Origin: an uncultured Dehalococcoidia bacterium
GTDB lineage: Bacteria > Chloroflexota > Dehalococcoidia > Lucifugimonadales > UBA1123
Direction of reading: 5' to 3'
DNA length: 64,000 bases
Assembly (NCBI GenBank): GCA_958296105.1
Contig: OY282441.1
Coordinates: 2,315,800-2,379,799 of the forward strand
The notes beneath the pieces are model-generated. The model saw only the letters and a list, made by a program, of their open reading frames with translations. It did no database searches and was not told the origin of the DNA. The position numbers and the translations under genes are program-made. This document shows, piece after piece, positions 16,461-24,336 of the stretch. The first letter of the stretch is position 1. Each line of letters begins with the position of its first letter.

Positions 16461-16488
16461 CCACAAGTATTCAGTTGTCTGCTGGAAT

Positions 16489-16516
16489 CCTATACCCCGC
16501 GCCATGGTGGTGTCAA
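16489..16516 (-). promoter_or_regulatory. Promoter of the SAM-recycling operon
   Basis: Minus-strand TTGACA (16511-16516) and TATAGG (16489-16494) are 16 bp apart. Transcription would start near 16482, about 20 bp before the riboswitch P1 stem. It is the only strong promoter between the Hsp70-like gene and the aptamer. Confidence 0.75.
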
Positions 16517-16547
16517 GAATTTCCGAGATTCGGAAGAGCGGCTTGAG

Positions 16548-18317
16548 TCAGCCGGGTCGTTCGCCATGTCCGAATGGGTTATGGGTCAAGTTACGGTGGA
16601 GAATCTCGGCTTGCCTCTCTTCGAATTTGCGTTGCTTCTCATGTCTCAACTCTATTGTCTCACGCTGCGCGTCTGTCTGCCAGACGGGGTATTGGACTAT
16701 TGGATCGACGTCATTCATGGGTTTGTGTATATGCGTGAATCCCGCTCCGAACTCCATCCAAACACTGCCAAAACGGTCCACTATGAACCTGACGCGATCA
16801 GCTTGGGGACCCTGGTAGCCATCTCGCGGCATCCGAAGGTCATCCGACTTCGACTCAAGGACATCGCCATCCGGACTTGTAATTTGTATCGAGTACCTCT
16901 TCGCTCCACCTCGTTCTAGATCGAGCCACTGCCCTTCGTGTGGATCCAGCGGTCTTCTAAAGGGCAGTCTCGTAAACGCTTCGTACCTGTCCTCCCTAGT
17001 CGAATTTGCGTCTGTCACCTTCAAGGTTATGTTCGCAGGCACGCGGTCTACCGTTATCGGCATGTGCTTTTTATCGTACATGTAGCAGGCGCCGTGAGAC
17101 AGGGTCGTCAGCGCTGCGTCGGTCGAGTCTATGCCCAGTCTGCCTGCTAGTTTAGCAGCCGTGATTACTTTCTCACTGCCAAACACTTCCCTTAATTTCT
17201 CTGGGAAGTATGGCGTCAGCGTTGGGCCGCCTACGACCAGAACTTGATCCAAGTCTCGGGCCATGTCCTCGATCTTCAGCGACCATACGGACTTACCATT
17301 GAGGAGGATTTCACCATGTGGCGGACTTCCATCGGGGCGTTTCCACAGTAGTTTGGCTTTCTTGTAGGCGTCCAATGACGCCAACAAGGTTTTCTGTATG
17401 AATTTCCCCTCTTCCAGTACGCGCTCGATATCACGCATACTGAGAGTGCGCCCGTCGTCTAGTTCGATCTCTTCCGATTCGGAAGACTCGGAAGACAGCG
17501 ACTCTTTATTGATGCGCAAGTCTCTCGGCGATCCCGAGTACTCCAGTCGTTCCGTGAGCATCTCGTCAATGTCCATGCCTCCCAGCGCAGGCAGGCTCTC
17601 CTCGGCGTAAACTGTGAGCTTATCGTTGGCTTTCTCGACAATAGCGCAGTCGAATGAACCTCCGCCAATGTCATACACGAGATAAGAGCCGTCCTCCAGT
17701 GTTCCGATTGCGTCTCCGAGCGCAACGAACAGCAGAGGCTCTTCGGTAATCCACTCTATCTTGCCAGAGCATCCCAGCTCTTCCAGCGCTGACACCAGAG
17801 CTTTGCGATAGACGAGATCGCTGCTCACAGGACAGCCGGCGCGCCACTCTGCCGCCGCGCCTGCAAGCCCAGATCTGGATATTGCCTCTTTCAGTATCCG
17901 CGCAACGGCTTCTTCCAACGATACGGTATCGTTCCAAAGCCTGATGGTGCGACTGTCGAGGTCCAGCCATGCAGGCCACATCTCCCTGTTAGGCGATTTA
18001 TTCGCGCGCTGATGAAAGTCCCACTCGATTTGTCTGCGCACATAATCGTCGCTTGCCAGCGCCCATCTTTTGATATTCCGTATAATTCTAGTATCATCTG
18101 GGGTATCGGGTCCGAGATCGAGATCGTCGGCATCTTCCCCAACTACGATGTCGACTCTTCCGTCGGGCTGCCTCTTGAATGCCATTACCGTTGGCATCAC
18201 TGACGCAAGACCACGCTGTCCGATTGGGCAGGTTGACGGATTTTCGCCGCTGTCAGCGTCCCACTGAGCTATACGGACATTCGTAGTCCCGAAATCTATT
18301 CCTACTATCTTCGACAT
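16548..18317 (-). CDS. Hsp70-like ATPase with non-canonical C-terminal half
   Basis: 589 residues. The actin/Hsp70 nucleotide-binding fold is clear: phosphate-1 GIDFGTTNVRIAQWD (6-20), ITEEPLLFVALGDAIG (190-205, the NEP-like connect motif), phosphate-2 YLVYDIGGGSFDCAIV (212-227) and adenosine motif VLVVGGPTLTPYF (359-371). It contains a Ser/Glu-rich insertion (about 274-288). The C-terminal ~150 residues do not look like a DnaK substrate-binding domain and are aromatic and proline rich. No DnaJ or GrpE gene is nearby. It starts 2 bp after the Tudor-like gene, so the two are cotranscribed. I infer a specialised chaperone-like ATPase working with that partner. Confidence 0.85.
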   Translation of the reverse strand: MSKIVGIDFGTTNVRIAQWDADSGENPSTCPIGQRGLASVMPTVMAFKRQPDGRVDIVVGEDADDLDLGPDTPDDTRIIRNIKRWALASDDYVRRQIEWDFHQRANKSPNREMWPAWLDLDSRTIRLWNDTVSLEEAVARILKEAISRSGLAGAAAEWRAGCPVSSDLVYRKALVSALEELGCSGKIEWITEEPLLFVALGDAIGTLEDGSYLVYDIGGGSFDCAIVEKANDKLTVYAEESLPALGGMDIDEMLTERLEYSGSPRDLRINKESLSSESSESEEIELDDGRTLSMRDIERVLEEGKFIQKTLLASLDAYKKAKLLWKRPDGSPPHGEILLNGKSVWSLKIEDMARDLDQVLVVGGPTLTPYFPEKLREVFGSEKVITAAKLAGRLGIDSTDAALTTLSHGACYMYDKKHMPITVDRVPANITLKVTDANSTREDRYEAFTRLPFRRPLDPHEGQWLDLERGGAKRYSIQITSPDGDVLESKSDDLRMPRDGYQGPQADRVRFIVDRFGSVWMEFGAGFTHIHKPMNDVDPIVQYPVWQTDAQRETIELRHEKQRKFEERQAEILHRNLTHNPFGHGERPG

Positions 18318-18319
18318 GG

Positions 18320-20242
18320 TTACACCTCTACTACACGGCCCTGTACTTTGATCAGCACCAATGGCGGATCCACCCCTTTTATGTATCTCACACCGGGGGC
18401 GGTAACTCTGATTTGTGAATCGCTGGCGGAAATCTTGCTCGATGAACTTGTCGCAGCTGAGGAATTCACTACATGACGATTCTGGTCATACGGTTCGATT
18501 TCCCCAATTTTGCCAAACGGCTCTGCGCCAAGTGACCTGATCGCAAGCTCTACTTTAGCTTTGACACTCGAAACATCCTTCGATGGAGAAACTGGGTAAG
18601 CGGCGATAATCTGTAGGGCTTCGCCAAGAATCTCGATGGCGTCGCCGCTAATGTCCAGAGTTGCGCCAGAGTTCTTTTTCCCAAGCTCCCCGCGCAAGTA
18701 GTTTGCCTGCTTGTTCGTTCGCTCCAGCTCGTCCTCGACTTCTCCTAGCCTACTCCGCACCCCCCTAATCTCCCGCTCCTTCTCTTCGCGCACTCTGGCA
18801 ATCTCAAACTGGGCGGCGGACTGAATCGTATCACGCCATTCAGTCATGCGCGAATCTACGGGCGCTTGGTCATTCTCACCAAAAGACACGGCGTCTTCCC
18901 GCATTAGGTTCAGCATGTCTTGGCGCAGATTTTCATGCAGAATCCAGCCGAGCGCAACCGTGCCGAACAGACAGTGGCGCTGTTCTTCCTTTGCGCGTCG
19001 CCACTCGATTTTCAGCAGAGACTCTGCCGCCCTGATCGTTTTTTCATCCTGAGCTGCAATGAGCAGAGATGAGATCAGATTTGCCTGTTCCGCAGGTTCG
19101 AGTATCTTGAGCCAGTCTCTAACCGCCGACTCCGCGCCTCGGTTAGCGTCTAGCGTAAACATCTGTCTCCAGAAGGCTGCTTTGTCGTCGCCGTCCAGCA
19201 GCGCGTTGAGCTTTTCGAGCAGCCGCCGCGTTCCATCCGGTGTTTCCTGCGATGCGAGCAGTGCGGCGCGAGCCACAGCTTCAGAATTGTAGCTGTTTCT
19301 CGACGCGTAATCAGCCAGCCATCTCACAAGGCTTTCGCAGTCGCCGTCGAGACGCGCAGCCAGTTTGGTAAATTCGGCAACCGGCACACTTGGCGCGCCA
19401 AGAATCTCGAGCCAGCGGTCGAGGGCAGCCGCGAGACAGTCCAACCAGACATTGGCCCTGGCAGACATGGCAGCCCGTCTCGCAGGTAGAACTCGCTCTC
19501 TGAGTTCGTCCGAGTACAGCCTCTCGATGGCTCTGGGCGTGACCTCTGTCGCCAATCCGCGCAGAAACGGAATGAGAGTCTCCGGCGGGTCTGTATCCGG
19601 TAATGGAGTTGGTTCATTGGATTGAACCCAAATCGCCCATTCGCTCAGCCGCGCCGTGGCGGATGTAGGCGGACGGCCAGCGCGATCCTTGCCAGACTCC
19701 GACCTCTTGGGAGTGGCGGTCGGTTCACTCAAACTGGCGAGTTCTTCTTCCGACAGCCTTTTAGCGAGCCTTGTCCCTTTCCGCGAGTAATCGAACAAGG
19801 GCGAGTCCTTCAGCTTGGGCTGGACACGATTCCACCATCGTTCCCAGGCATCGGGCGAAACCAAGTCGGGAGTGAGTTTCTCGCTTATGCTCTTCTTCTG
19901 TGCAGGTCTGCGATCTATGTCGACTAGCGCCGCAGCAACCAGACGCAGCGGCGCTTCATCCGCCCATCGCCGCGTCTCTTCGGGATTCAGGATCAGACTG
20001 GCTTCCAAGCCCTCGACCCTCAGCTTCCTGAGTGATCTCTTGGCATCGTCGCGGCTCATCGAGTGTCCGGGTTCGGACGCGAAATCAACCATGACGCGCC
20101 CATTGCCACCCACGTCGACAATCTTACCCGCCCCCAATTGGCGATGGGATACGATTGTCTCTATACGGATGTCCTCGTCTGTCAGCACAGGCACGGTCTC
20201 CTGAACGCCATAACCTCCCCTGCTTGAAACGTCATCATACAC
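18320..20242 (-). CDS. Unrecognised protein with N-terminal Tudor/KOW-like module and C-terminal coiled coil
   Basis: 640 residues from a GTG; starts at GTG codons about 17-19 codons further in are possible. Residues ~27-75 (ETIVSHRQLGAGKIVDVGG...VMVDF) resemble the small Tudor/SH3-like barrels at the C-terminus of UvrD-type helicases. Residues ~85-165 contain a tryptophan-rich block (DAWERWWNRVQPKLKDSPLF) like one I associate with long GreA-type proteins. The middle is alpha-helical and repeat-like. Residues ~480-545 form a coiled coil (VREEKEREIRGVRSRLGEVE). A TerD- or kinase-type catalytic motif is not seen. Cotranscription with the Hsp70-like gene suggests an adaptor or target-recognition subunit. 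The function is unknown. Confidence 0.7.
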   Translation of the reverse strand: MYDDVSSRGGYGVQETVPVLTDEDIRIETIVSHRQLGAGKIVDVGGNGRVMVDFASEPGHSMSRDDAKRSLRKLRVEGLEASLILNPEETRRWADEAPLRLVAAALVDIDRRPAQKKSISEKLTPDLVSPDAWERWWNRVQPKLKDSPLFDYSRKGTRLAKRLSEEELASLSEPTATPKRSESGKDRAGRPPTSATARLSEWAIWVQSNEPTPLPDTDPPETLIPFLRGLATEVTPRAIERLYSDELRERVLPARRAAMSARANVWLDCLAAALDRWLEILGAPSVPVAEFTKLAARLDGDCESLVRWLADYASRNSYNSEAVARAALLASQETPDGTRRLLEKLNALLDGDDKAAFWRQMFTLDANRGAESAVRDWLKILEPAEQANLISSLLIAAQDEKTIRAAESLLKIEWRRAKEEQRHCLFGTVALGWILHENLRQDMLNLMREDAVSFGENDQAPVDSRMTEWRDTIQSAAQFEIARVREEKEREIRGVRSRLGEVEDELERTNKQANYLRGELGKKNSGATLDISGDAIEILGEALQIIAAYPVSPSKDVSSVKAKVELAIRSLGAEPFGKIGEIEPYDQNRHVVNSSAATSSSSKISASDSQIRVTAPGVRYIKGVDPPLVLIKVQGRVVEV

Positions 20243-20364
20243 GATATTACGGCAAGCGTGGGAGTATGCGGCTTGGTATTCTCCATTCGTGTGGATAATC
20301 TAAATCATGGAGGCAAGATAGATGCGCTTCGGTTCTGAGCCGAGCGTTGGAGCGATGGGCATGA

Positions 20365-20397
20365 GGTGTACAGCTGGGCTGCCCAGCTACATGCACC
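20365..20397. terminator. Strong hairpin in the 20.24-20.43 kb gap
   Basis: AGCTGGGC and GCCCAGCT face each other across a single T, extended by outer GGTG/CACC pairs. It lies between the methyltransferase stop (minus strand) and the Tudor-like gene. No T-run follows, so it may be an intrinsic-terminator variant or an mRNA-end stem-loop. Nothing else is seen in this gap. Confidence 0.5.
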
Positions 20398-20433
20398 AAG
20401 TTGGCAAGGTCAGCGAGGAGTATGCGAGTCAGT

Positions 20434-21237
20434 CTAGGAGTGGGCGATAGCCTCTCCGAACGCGAACGCCCCACATGCGCCGGGATCCGTTCTCCACTCG
20501 TCGAGAGCGCGGAGCATGATCTCGAACTGCTCCCGAGTCGCCAGCCCGTAAGTCGTTGCCGCTTCGACCACGCGCGGCGAGAAGAACCAGTCCAATATGA
20601 AGGCGTGGAGGAAGGCCACGTCCTCGGGCGCGCTGAAGAAGTCGAAGGACGCGCCCACCTCGATGTCCGAGAAGCCTGCGTCGAGGAGCATGCTCTTCAG
20701 TTCCTTTCCCATCTGCGGATGACCTCCATTCGCCGCCAGCAGTCTGGCGAACACGCCCCACGCCTCGTCTATGACCTCGGACGCCGGCTCCACGAACGAG
20801 GACGCCACGAACAGCTCCCGACATCCGATCATGCCGCCCGGCTTCAGCACGCGCCGAACCTCCGCCAGCGCCGCCTGAGTATTCGGCACGTGCGTCAGCA
20901 CCGTATGGCAGTGCGCCACGTCGAAATAGCCGTCCGTGAAGGGGAGGTTGGTCACGTCTCCGACGTGGAACGTGGCGTTATCGTGTCCGCCTGCTTGGGC
21001 GGCGTACCGCGCCACCTCGACCTGTGACTCCTCCAGATCCACCCCATGCACCTCCCCGCCAGGCTCCACCGCCCGCGCCAGCCCCACTGAGATAGTCCCC
21101 GGCCCGCAGCCGAAGTCCAGAACTCGGAGGCCCGGATCGAGATGCGGAAGCAGATAAGCCGCGTGACTCTCCGCGTTGCGCCGATCCAGAAGCTGCAAGA
21201 ACTCCTCGCTGTAGCCCATCGTGTACTGCCCGGCCAT
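20434..21237 (-). CDS. Class I SAM-dependent methyltransferase
   Basis: 267 residues from ATG 21237, with GGGGG just upstream. Motif I LRVLDFGCGPGTISVGLA (about 38-55), the acidic post-I GEVHGVDLEESQVEVA, motif II VTNLPFTDGYFDVAHCH and VRRVLKPGGMIGCREL form the usual UbiE/Methyltransf_11 order. The C-terminal half (DEAWGVFARLLAANGG..., FLHAFILDWFF) is helical and probably binds the substrate, which cannot be predicted. It stands alone between the Hsp70-like pair and the two-TM gene. Confidence 0.9.
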   Translation of the reverse strand: MAGQYTMGYSEEFLQLLDRRNAESHAAYLLPHLDPGLRVLDFGCGPGTISVGLARAVEPGGEVHGVDLEESQVEVARYAAQAGGHDNATFHVGDVTNLPFTDGYFDVAHCHTVLTHVPNTQAALAEVRRVLKPGGMIGCRELFVASSFVEPASEVIDEAWGVFARLLAANGGHPQMGKELKSMLLDAGFSDIEVGASFDFFSAPEDVAFLHAFILDWFFSPRVVEAATTYGLATREQFEIMLRALDEWRTDPGACGAFAFGEAIAHS

Positions 21238-21297
21238 GACCAACCCCCGATCCTGTCCGCTATGCTCCCGACATTCCGTTATGTAAGCCCAGATTGG

Positions 21298-21831
21298 CTA
21301 GGAGCTGTCGGCGCGTCCATTGGGCTCGTGCCGCTGCTGGAAATCTTCAGGAGCTCTGGGCGGCGGCTCGTCGAACGGTTCGCCCTTCTCCTGAGCTTCC
21401 AGGAGACGCCGATACCAAGCGTCCCAATCCCGGTGAGTTTCCACTCGGCCTTCCACTCGGCCTTCCGCTCTGCCCTCCGTTCGGCCTTCCGCTCTGCCCT
21501 GTCTTCGGCCTTGCCTTCGGTGCCTCTCCCTGATGGGTTCGATGAAGATATCTCCAAGCGCATCTCTAATGAACATGACAAACTCCACTCCTTGGAACAG
21601 CATTATACAGGATACTGCGGCGAGGAGAGGAATGATCGCGAGTCTTTCTGTGACAGCCACGATCGTCTCTGTGAGGTCTATGTGACCGCCCCTAGTCACT
21701 TCGTAGTGAATGATGAACACCGCTGCCACCAGCACCTCTACGCTGAAGATTACGGAGAAGATAGCCCACCACTTCTTCGGTATGCTCCACACTGATTCCC
21801 TGTCGGATCGAGGATCACGATTAGCAGACAT
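21298..21831 (-). CDS. Two-TM membrane protein with Arg/Gly/Glu repeat tail
   Basis: 177 residues from ATG 21831, chosen because AAGGAG lies eight bases upstream. Two hydrophobic helices are evident (about residues 17-40, IFSVIFSVEVLVAAVFII, and 57-82, LAIIPLLAAVSCIMLFQG). The cytosolic-side tail is a low-complexity run of GRAEGRTEGRAEGRVEG type, encoded by a ~12-bp direct repeat. It ends in a short conserved-looking DWDAWYRRLLEAQEKGEPF. No family is recognised. It is followed by the methyltransferase gene and preceded by the hairpin and the XRE-NTPase gene. Confidence 0.75.
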   Translation of the reverse strand: MSANRDPRSDRESVWSIPKKWWAIFSVIFSVEVLVAAVFIIHYEVTRGGHIDLTETIVAVTERLAIIPLLAAVSCIMLFQGVEFVMFIRDALGDIFIEPIRERHRRQGRRQGRAEGRTEGRAEGRVEGRVETHRDWDAWYRRLLEAQEKGEPFDEPPPRAPEDFQQRHEPNGRADSS

Positions 21832-21888
21832 TTGGCAAACTCCTTTTTGAATAGGCCGCGAACGGCGCGGCATCCACGCGAATAGAGA

Positions 21889-21910
21889 GGCGGGCCTTCG
21901 CAGACCCGCC
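21889..21910 (-). terminator. Hairpin terminator after the XRE-NTPase gene
   Basis: GGCGGGTCTGCGAAGGCCCGCC lies 13 bp after the stop at 21924. A short pyrimidine run (TCTCTATT) follows on the minus strand. The same 22 bp recur after groEL at 24279-24303. Confidence 0.65.
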
Positions 21911-21923
21911 CCGGTTTGACTGG

Positions 21924-24080
21924 CTACTCAACACTCATGGCTGAATCTGCCAAAACCTCATTGAGGATTTCGGACAGACGATTGATTACTCCGGACCACT
22001 CTTGAGCTATCAGGTTCGCAATCGCTTTCTGGTAGCGCGAGTTGTTCTTCTCGAACCATTTCAAGTGGTGCCTTGCCACACGATCACGATAGCCTGGACC
22101 GCGCCCCCATTCGTCGTCTGATTCGGACCAAGGGTCAGTACCGGGCTTCATGTATCGGGCGTGAATTTCCGTCCCAGCTAGCTGACACTTTCGATACAAT
22201 CCCTCGACCCCGGTGACGATGACTCTACGCGCCTGACGCACTAGCCCATGCGCCTCGTCAAACCGTGAATTTTCAAGAAGATTCTCCACGACGTGGAACG
22301 AATCCATCTTGGATCTCAAGACGCTAACTGCCGTCAGGCGAGCGCCGTAGTTGAGTTCGTGTGAGTATTCAAGGTTGTACCACTCACCATTCCTGCGAAC
22401 GCTCGCGCGCAGCGAGCTGGGATGCGCGCTGCCAATGGATTTCATAAGGCTTTCTTCTACGCGCGGCGCTCCTGACAGATCCAGGGTCGCGTTGGTAGCC
22501 ACCCAGTCTTTCAGCAACTTGGCAGCCTCTTGCTGTACGAGCAGGGTTTGTTCTTGCTCGTAGTTGTCGACCAATGCTCTAGCGTCTGTGACGGCTTCAT
22601 GTAGAACCGCAACGTGCTGATCCCTGAGATTCTTCACTAGACCCAGGATGAAGGTTCGGAGTCTATCTGAATCATCATCGAGCGCGTTGAAGAACTCGAC
22701 AGACACTCCAGGGATACCGATTGACGTCAGCATAGTCTTAGCCTGTTCGAGTTTCAGGTCATAACCGTCCTCCGTGGACTCTGCGGGGGTTCCGTCGTCG
22801 TACTTGACTGACAAGGCTTCATCGTAACGCGACAATCCCAAGATTGCAGTCTTGTATTCGATCCGCTCGAATCTGCCTTCCTCGGCGCGTTTCAGCAGCT
22901 GTTGTACTGAAGGGGATGGGGTGGACTCGAACCTCGAGCATAGCACCGCGACGGTGTTCGGCTCGGCAAAGAGGGATTCGATGTCTCCTCGCTGAGCATT
23001 TCGGTCAATTCCCTTCGTGTCTATGAGCCTGATCGACAGTGACTTTTCATCGAGGATCGGATCAGGAATGTTTACCTCGATGCGTTGGGGGATTGAGAAC
23101 TCGGGGTGGCGTCCATTGTTGAGCGACTCGAAACTCTGCTTCAGCCAAGCGAGCGGCTCAATTCCAGCGACAGTCGGCTCATACCATGTTTCGCGCTTCG
23201 TCCTGCTCGCAAGGTTCATCTTCGCCAGTATCTCTACCACGAAGGCATCGGCATCTGCCATCTCGTCAGCCAGTTGTCGTGCGGGGTCTTCAGTCTTGCG
23301 CGTGGGTTTCCCATCTGGACCGATGATTCTTCGTCTCTTTTTAGTGAGTCCGCTCATGTTGCGGATCGCACGCTCGATCTCCTTCGATGTTCCGATTAGC
23401 TCGTCGCCGGCTTCATCGCTCGCTCTCGGCGGATTTTTGAGCAGACTTGCAAATTCACGGACTTCTCGGCGGATTTCCTGCTCGCTCCGAGGTTCGACCA
23501 CAAGACCGTACTCAGGTCCCTGCACAACGTGGACTTCACACACGGTTATCCCGCCGCCGCCAACCTCAAGCACCGTGTCAGGCTTTGGTTTGTCGTTGCT
23601 GATTTCAAGCCCAAGCACGCGGCATATGCTGGTGGATTTGCCAACGCCAATGTCGCCTACGAACGCGACCGAGTGCTCCGTGCGTTGGACAAGCGTAGCC
23701 GCGTCGCGCAAACCCTCTTCCATATCTCGCAGTCGGTTGGCAAACGAGTTCTTGATGTCTGGGTCTGCCAGCAGCGTCTGGATATTGTCGATCGCGCTGT
23801 CGGTATCCCACAACATAGACTGGTTGGGGTGTCCCAGTGGGGGTTTTGGAATATACCGCCACTCCAGCCCAGCCGTGTCCTTGAACTCGAGCGCTTTCTC
23901 GGTGCCGATTGCTTCCAGTATCAGGTTGCGCTCCTTAGAAGTTACAGGTCGTTCACCCGATTCGACGCGAGAAAGCACGGTCGGACTCCAGCCAACCTTC
24001 TCAGCCAACTCATTCTGCTTCAGCCCCGCCTCGTCTCTGAGTCGAGCCAGATACCTGCTGGTTTGTATGCCTGTGGTCAT
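21924..24080 (-). CDS. XRE-type HTH fused to a dynamin-like P-loop NTPase
   Basis: 718 residues. Residues 7-60 are a Cro/C1-type helix-turn-helix (ARLRDEAGLKQNELAEKVGW, then SPTVLSRVESGERP). Residues ~135-470 are a large P-loop NTPase: Walker A VGDIGVGKST (141-150), a possible switch Thr in GGGGITVCEV (174-183) and a G3-like LIDTKGID (352-359). There is no clear N/TKxD base motif; SRYDE (417-421) occupies its place. The long helical insertion (200-300) and helical C-terminus resemble dynamin-like or GBP-like GTPases. DNA binding by the HTH and autoregulation are inferred from the inverted repeat at its promoter. Function unknown; defence or stress sensing is plausible. Confidence 0.8.
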   Translation of the reverse strand: MTTGIQTSRYLARLRDEAGLKQNELAEKVGWSPTVLSRVESGERPVTSKERNLILEAIGTEKALEFKDTAGLEWRYIPKPPLGHPNQSMLWDTDSAIDNIQTLLADPDIKNSFANRLRDMEEGLRDAATLVQRTEHSVAFVGDIGVGKSTSICRVLGLEISNDKPKPDTVLEVGGGGITVCEVHVVQGPEYGLVVEPRSEQEIRREVREFASLLKNPPRASDEAGDELIGTSKEIERAIRNMSGLTKKRRRIIGPDGKPTRKTEDPARQLADEMADADAFVVEILAKMNLASRTKRETWYEPTVAGIEPLAWLKQSFESLNNGRHPEFSIPQRIEVNIPDPILDEKSLSIRLIDTKGIDRNAQRGDIESLFAEPNTVAVLCSRFESTPSPSVQQLLKRAEEGRFERIEYKTAILGLSRYDEALSVKYDDGTPAESTEDGYDLKLEQAKTMLTSIGIPGVSVEFFNALDDDSDRLRTFILGLVKNLRDQHVAVLHEAVTDARALVDNYEQEQTLLVQQEAAKLLKDWVATNATLDLSGAPRVEESLMKSIGSAHPSSLRASVRRNGEWYNLEYSHELNYGARLTAVSVLRSKMDSFHVVENLLENSRFDEAHGLVRQARRVIVTGVEGLYRKCQLAGTEIHARYMKPGTDPWSESDDEWGRGPGYRDRVARHHLKWFEKNNSRYQKAIANLIAQEWSGVINRLSEILNEVLADSAMSVE

Positions 24081-24098
24081 GTCCCTCTCCGTGAATCA

Positions 24099-24160
24099 CA
24101 AGATTGCCGCAATTATAACCCGTGTAGTTGAAAATATCAAGAAACATTGTAGCAATCTTG
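24099..24160 (-). promoter_or_regulatory. Promoter with flanking inverted-repeat operator
   Basis: Minus-strand TTGATA (24135-24140) and TATAAT (24112-24117) are exactly 17 bp apart. A perfect 9-bp inverted repeat, CAAGATTGC (24152-24160 on the minus strand) and GCAATCTTG (24099-24107), brackets the promoter. The first codon of the XRE-NTPase gene is 19 bp downstream. The placement suggests autorepression by the encoded HTH. Confidence 0.8.
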
Positions 24161-24277
24161 CTGAACTGTGATCAGGCTGAAATGGGAGTTACGCAATTGG
24201 GAGCAATTTCATAGTTGGGCAAGCGTCCTGCGATAAGTCTTCACCTTCGACTGCGTAAGTTCTGTGAAATTGAAAAA

Positions 24278-24304
24278 GGGGCGGGCCTTCGCAGACCCGC
24301 CCCC
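24278..24304 (-). terminator. Rho-independent terminator of groESL
   Basis: On the minus strand GGGGCGGG and CCCGCCCC form a GC-rich stem, followed directly by TTTTTC, 32 bp after the groEL stop. It contains the same 22-bp hairpin as at 21889-21910. Confidence 0.9.
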
Positions 24305-24336
24305 AATCTAATTCGCTATTCGGTTGTCTTCCGCGC

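Follow-up and report, generated by a model that had tools for sequence, protein, structure and literature searches.

A mobile family of XRE helix-turn-helix–dynamin-like fusion proteins with predicted autorepression and a probable role in defence

Why a repressor-type DNA-binding domain and a dynamin-like NTPase should share one polypeptide, and which genes such a protein could control, is the question raised by a gene of an uncultured Dehalococcoidia bacterium. The gene lies at 21924..24080, minus strand, of the 64,000-nucleotide stretch that was analysed as a whole (the window), and is a single copy in its own 3.18-Mb single-contig genome. It is a single open reading frame with an ATG start, stop codon included, and encodes 718 amino acids. 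A first-pass annotation of the same DNA had proposed a direct fusion through which nucleotide or membrane state would control transcription, and had drawn the feature to position 24160, about 80 bases upstream of the ATG, which happens to cover the promoter region. From sequence comparison and structural models we suggest, with a probability of roughly 60%, that this is a solitary gene whose dynamin-like product represses its own expression and probably serves in defence.

One chain holds a Cro/C1 (XRE) helix-turn-helix (HTH), a dynamin-type G domain that lacks N/TKxD, and a helical stalk. The HTH occupies residues 9-60 (23901..24056, minus strand, as are all protein features below) and is matched by Pfam HTH_31 (E 6e-11, exceeding the gathering score) and HTH_3 (E 5e-9); it comprises five helices in the model, and its best PDB sequence matches include C.BclI and HipB. 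Its recognition helix, placed from the model helix and the helix classes described below, is PTVLSRVE at residues 33-40 (23961..23984). Two neck-like helices at residues 87-132 (23685..23822) precede the G domain in the model, and the structural alignments to mitofusins and IniA start at residues 81-88. The G domain itself, residues 133-470 (22671..23684), was delimited by Foldseek and VIA comparisons and carries the G1 P-loop GDIGVGKST (residues 142-150, 23631..23657), a switch I-like segment EVGGGGITVCE (23535..23567) and a G3 motif DTKG (residues 354-357, 23010..23021). G142, G147, K148, T179, D354, T355 and G357 are invariant in all 69 aligned homologues, so the G1 loop and DTKG, found where the first-pass annotation had placed them, are near-universal in the family. 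The absence of N/TKxD, noted there as well, is borne out: the G4 position, following a strand at 411-416, reads SRYDEA (22815..22832, from model and alignment; [PA]RxxEA in the family), with D at position 420 in only 26/69 and E at position 421 in 59/69. We call the protein dynamin-like, and not a canonical dynamin member, because it lacks the [N/T]KxD required at G4. The stalk, residues 471-718 (21927..22670), was assigned from residues 483-718 folded alone and from the VIA ranking, and has two conserved segments: HPSSLRASVRRNGEWYNLEYSHELNYGAR at residues 553-581 (22338..22424; A559 in 69/69, R563 and G565 in 66/69 each) and, as a family pattern, WxxCxxEWGxGxGYxxRV...WF at residues 651-676 (22053..22130; W651 in 69/69, G659 in 67/69, F676 in 65/69). 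A clear transmembrane segment was not found in the family, 4 of the 69 proteins rising above the KD19 threshold of 1.6.

Sequence families alone were unable to decide the fold. Pfam matches in the window protein are weak (Dynamin_N E 0.024, MMR_HSR1 E 0.01), and AAA/ABC sequence profiles weakly match some family members; structural comparison by Foldseek settled a dynamin-type fold. The full-length AlphaFold2 model, computed from the alignment of 69 homologues, has a pLDDT of 92.9 and a pTM of 0.91, and its top matches in the PDB are SynDLP (E 4.5e-9), IniA, BDLP, Campylobacter DLP and mitofusins; the unrelated ATPase fold that would have spoken against the fusion did not appear among these best matches, which belong to the dynamin superfamily. 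VIA aligned IniA to model residues 88-718 (410 residues, Z 13, rmsd 8.7) and mitofusins to roughly residues 83-513, and the architecture rests on these longer alignments because simple GTPases score equally high on the G domain alone. Folded separately, the stalk (residues 483-718) reached a pLDDT of 96.1. Campylobacter DLP took VIA ranks 1-2 for it, at a Z (9.3 over 228 residues) within the chance range for helical bundles; stalks of MxA, MxB, SynDLP and dynamin were also in the top 10, with scores that helical bundles can reach, and a Foldseek search with the stalk alone gave no significant match. Viral structure matches were confined to dynamin-like giant-virus proteins and phage repressors. 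Taken with the models, an architecture that joins an HTH to a dynamin-like protein is almost certain.

The fusion is a real and widespread family, supported by the HTH_31 match, the dynamin-superfamily fold and conservation across many phyla. Scanning genomes yielded 76 loci spread over many phyla, and tblastn against plasmids gave 18 nearly full-length homologues of 26-45% identity, in Citrobacter, Rhizobium, Mesorhizobium, sphingomonads and others. Three homologues were found on viral contigs, none in annotated phage genomes, and none in E. coli genomes by DNA similarity search. Database annotation calls the plasmid copies mostly 'helix-turn-helix transcriptional regulator', and the dynamin part is therefore currently hidden.

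The first-pass annotation had regarded homologues lacking the HTH as evidence against it; the survey returned the fusion in 62 of 69 aligned homologues and no HTH_31 match in 7. In a tree built from residue 100 onward, with the HTH columns left out, the window protein groups with SAR202/Dehalococcoidia sequences (L036, L060, L101), and the HTH-less L101 and L077/L080 nest inside HTH-bearing clades, which suggests that in these main-clade members the loss of the HTH was secondary. The HTH-less L103/L104 and L109 have long branches and an uncertain placement. In L079 a 507-aa ORF separates the HTH piece, some 2 kb upstream, from the rest, so its HTH-less appearance reflects a disruption, probably by an insertion. 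The existence of HTH-less copies implies that the dynamin part is able to function, or at any rate to be retained, on its own, and these relatives are natural controls for the contribution of the HTH. In the HTH-less Pseudanabaena/Phormidium relatives (L027, L109, L110) a gene of about 238 aa abuts at 0 bp; one record names its product a type I restriction HsdR N-terminal-domain protein.

In its own genome the gene is part of an insertion of about 7.9 kb between groEL and mtnA (16480..24336, unstranded), together with four other genes. One genome of the same genus and three of the same family have groEL followed by mtnA without this block, two other same-genus genomes have different genes after groEL, and a search of relatives found the 718-aa gene in none of the remaining 59 genomes. 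The junction between groEL and mtnA has the appearance of an insertion site. Homologues are carried on conjugative plasmids, and on such genomic evidence the gene is horizontally mobile and usually stand-alone.

Two adjacent genes inside the insertion (16551-20242, minus strand) encode proteins of 589 aa and 640 aa; the first is Hsp70/DnaK-like (HSP70 E 4e-9), the second weakly matches a GreA-fusion model. At the limits used neither was found on plasmids, and neither matched PADLOC. A 191-aa ORF (21298-21873, minus strand), 50 bp downstream of the 718-aa gene, has a hydrophobic N-terminal half, an R/E/G-rich repetitive tail and no confident family match. In the same-genus genome with the empty junction, groEL is in two pieces (G001:C5:12959-14541), possibly through a sequencing error.

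A role in defence is suggested by the company that the family keeps. We compared 100 genes within 3.7 kb of 20 homologues with 106 genes from other stretches of the same contigs. PADLOC families matched at E<=1e-15 numbered 103 near the homologues and 4 in the control stretches. Counted as proteins, defence matches were at least 12/100 near and at most 4/106 in controls (p 0.025), and at E<=1e-40 at least 12/100 and 1/106 (p 0.0009), figures to be read with the genes of one locus not being independent, as a single BREX or Gabija locus contributes several matches. BrxA, BrxB and BrxC at L061, HerA at L038 and GajA at L079 were confirmed individually; SIR2, GajB, SspD, AbiEi, PycC and PtuA are further PADLOC names among the neighbours, not traced to loci. 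The relatives thus adjoin BREX, Gabija and HerA-SIR2 systems more often than control regions do, and on plasmids the gene in places adjoins restriction-modification, DUF262, HipA-type and Dnd-related genes. The PADLOC matches of the homologues themselves fall mainly on the HTH; weak matches to Leo lie close to the P-loop. A conserved operon was considered and ruled out; as no partner recurs across the family, the gene behaves as a solitary cassette. By guilt by association we regard a defence role as probable.

A stress-response or envelope dynamin such as IniA or DynA, without any function in defence and present on the island as incidental cargo, would be another reading of this protein. IniA is indeed among the best structural matches, and none of the four neighbours in the window's insertion is a recognised defence gene; against this, the gene is patchy, plasmid-borne and nearer to defence systems than controls are, and we consider this reading unlikely.

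The preferred reading also requires that the HTH act on its own gene, and here the upstream sequence is informative. Autoregulation at promoter dyads is typical of the XRE HTH family, to which restriction-modification C proteins and HipB/HigA-type antitoxins belong. The window gene has a promoter TTGATA-17-TATAAT (24112..24140, minus strand; 11 of 12 consensus positions), flanked by two predicted operators of the GCAA-N2-TTGC type on the same strand: operator 1, AGCAAGATTGCT, upstream of the -35 (24151..24162), and operator 2, GCAATCTTGT, just past the -10 (24098..24107). The GCAATCTTG within operator 2 is the reverse complement of the CAAGATTGC within operator 1. A ribosome-binding-site-like GGAGA follows at 24086..24090 (minus strand), and a terminator-like hairpin 3' of groEL (24277..24304, minus strand) separates the transcription units of groEL and of the 718-aa gene.

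Across the family the upstream inverted repeats vary with the recognition helix and fall into four motif classes: A (helix D[QT]SRxSR, motif TGCATATATGCA), B (NQTRxSR, TGAATATATTCA), C (SP[AT]VLSR, GCAA-N2-TTGC) and D (TVxSV[LV]SK, TTGCGAA-TTCGCAA). The window gene belongs to class C, the class with the weakest 12-base motif. Mean mismatches to the own-class motif were 1.48, 0.50, 2.86 and 2.17 for A, B, C and D (4.2-4.6 in resampled sequence), none of 20,000 permutations of the class labels fitted as well as the observed assignment, and class C rewritten as GCAA-N2-TTGC occurs with at most 1 mismatch in 17/22 promoters (1.5 expected); these statistics are descriptive, because the motifs were derived from the data then counted and the clades are related, so that their sequences are not independent. 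Own promoters hold 18 occurrences of motifs A and B, against a single one in the rest of the 517 kb; C and D, weaker and scanned more loosely, occur elsewhere in the same 517 kb too, which leaves A and B as the only motifs with clear promoter-specificity. The distance from motif to start codon is 36-46 bases in many class A/B members, and TTGA[CT] stands some 20 bases further upstream, so that the motif would cover the -10 box. Upstream regions of the HTH-less relatives contained none of the family operator motifs. Class D members L028, L032, L034, L092 and L094 adjoin a divergent HipA-family-like gene of about 610-636 aa.

With an XRE HTH in 62/69 of the family and predicted dyad operators at its own promoter, the protein has the features of an XRE autorepressor, and it is very probable, judging from these sites, that the HTH represses its own promoter. 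The earlier idea of transcriptional control is thus partly supported, for the gene's own promoter by way of predicted operators, and the evidence goes against its extension to other genes. Such an extension would make the protein a transcription factor that switches adjacent defence genes through its HTH, in response to a nucleotide or membrane state sensed by the G domain. Besides the presence of the HTH, co-directional neighbours could be taken in its favour (in L079 a GajA-like gene follows after 25 bp, in L023/L024 DUF262 genes after 19-28 bp). However, the neighbours vary with no partner common across the family, the clearest operator motifs are at the gene's own promoter, a pattern search found the 17-mer around operator 1 of the window to be unique in the genome at <=3 mismatches, and HTH-less copies persist; we find this explanation improbable, and HTH control appears to be limited to the gene itself. 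Still less probable is an HTH that binds invading DNA as a targeting or sensing module on which the dynamin part assembles, which would suit the defence neighbourhood and the union of HTH and G domain in one chain, but the predicted sites overlap or flank core elements of the gene's own promoter and several lineages lost the HTH and kept the rest.

For the autorepressed defence protein we propose the following course of events. The HTH, probably dimeric, very likely binds inverted repeats that overlap or flank its own promoter and would thereby keep expression low. An invading element may disturb this repression, upon which the dynamin-like protein would accumulate, and nucleotide-dependent assembly of G domain and stalk may then carry out a protective act. 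Other dynamin-like proteins act at the membrane, and by analogy we tentatively suggest it as a plausible place for this act. The dynamin part would be the core and the HTH an accessory control part. A more intimate coupling, in which nucleotide-driven dynamin assembly pulls the protein's own HTH off the promoter and derepresses the gene, seems doubtful to us; if true, it would be a one-protein positive-feedback immune switch that links the dynamin cycle to transcription.

SynDLP, BDLP1, IniA and the Campylobacter DLP pair share with the 718-aa protein the G domain fold and, as the longer structural alignments suggest, possibly also the flanking helices and the helical stalk. Unlike these bacterial dynamin-like proteins, to which its identity is only about 10-15%, it has an N-terminal XRE HTH, a degenerate G4 and no clear transmembrane segment. 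LeoA/LeoBC (Eleos), dynamin-like proteins included in PADLOC, give weak and short profile matches around the P-loop region (best E 1.5e-4). Leo is a multi-gene locus for which no XRE HTH is reported (PMC4159319), the 'helix-turn-helix' of that paper being the neck helices, whereas here we deal with a single gene; paired dynamin genes in one operon, as in Eleos, were not found around the family, which has no recurring partner and weak profile matches only. Bacillus subtilis DynA is a dynamin-superfamily protein with an anti-phage effect that provides phage tolerance; it clusters on the membrane and delays lysis, and a fused HTH, as in the 718-aa protein, is not mentioned in the abstract (PMC8844932). 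Known dynamin-like defence is modest, as the DynA lysis delay illustrates, and in one genomic island the genes annotated as dynamins showed no activity against the phages assayed (PMC12595487).

C proteins and HipB/HigA antitoxins are small separate proteins, unlike the repressor of this family, which forms part of a dynamin-like chain. No account of an XRE-dynamin fusion turned up in the literature searched, a weak negative given its incomplete coverage. Bacterial dynamin-like proteins are known; what appears to be new is their fusion to an XRE domain, with a predicted autoregulated defence role. If our reading is true, a self-contained, autorepressed dynamin-like protein would be added to the bacterial defence repertoire, and the family would offer a natural case of a DNA-binding repressor and a dynamin-type assembly module sharing one chain.
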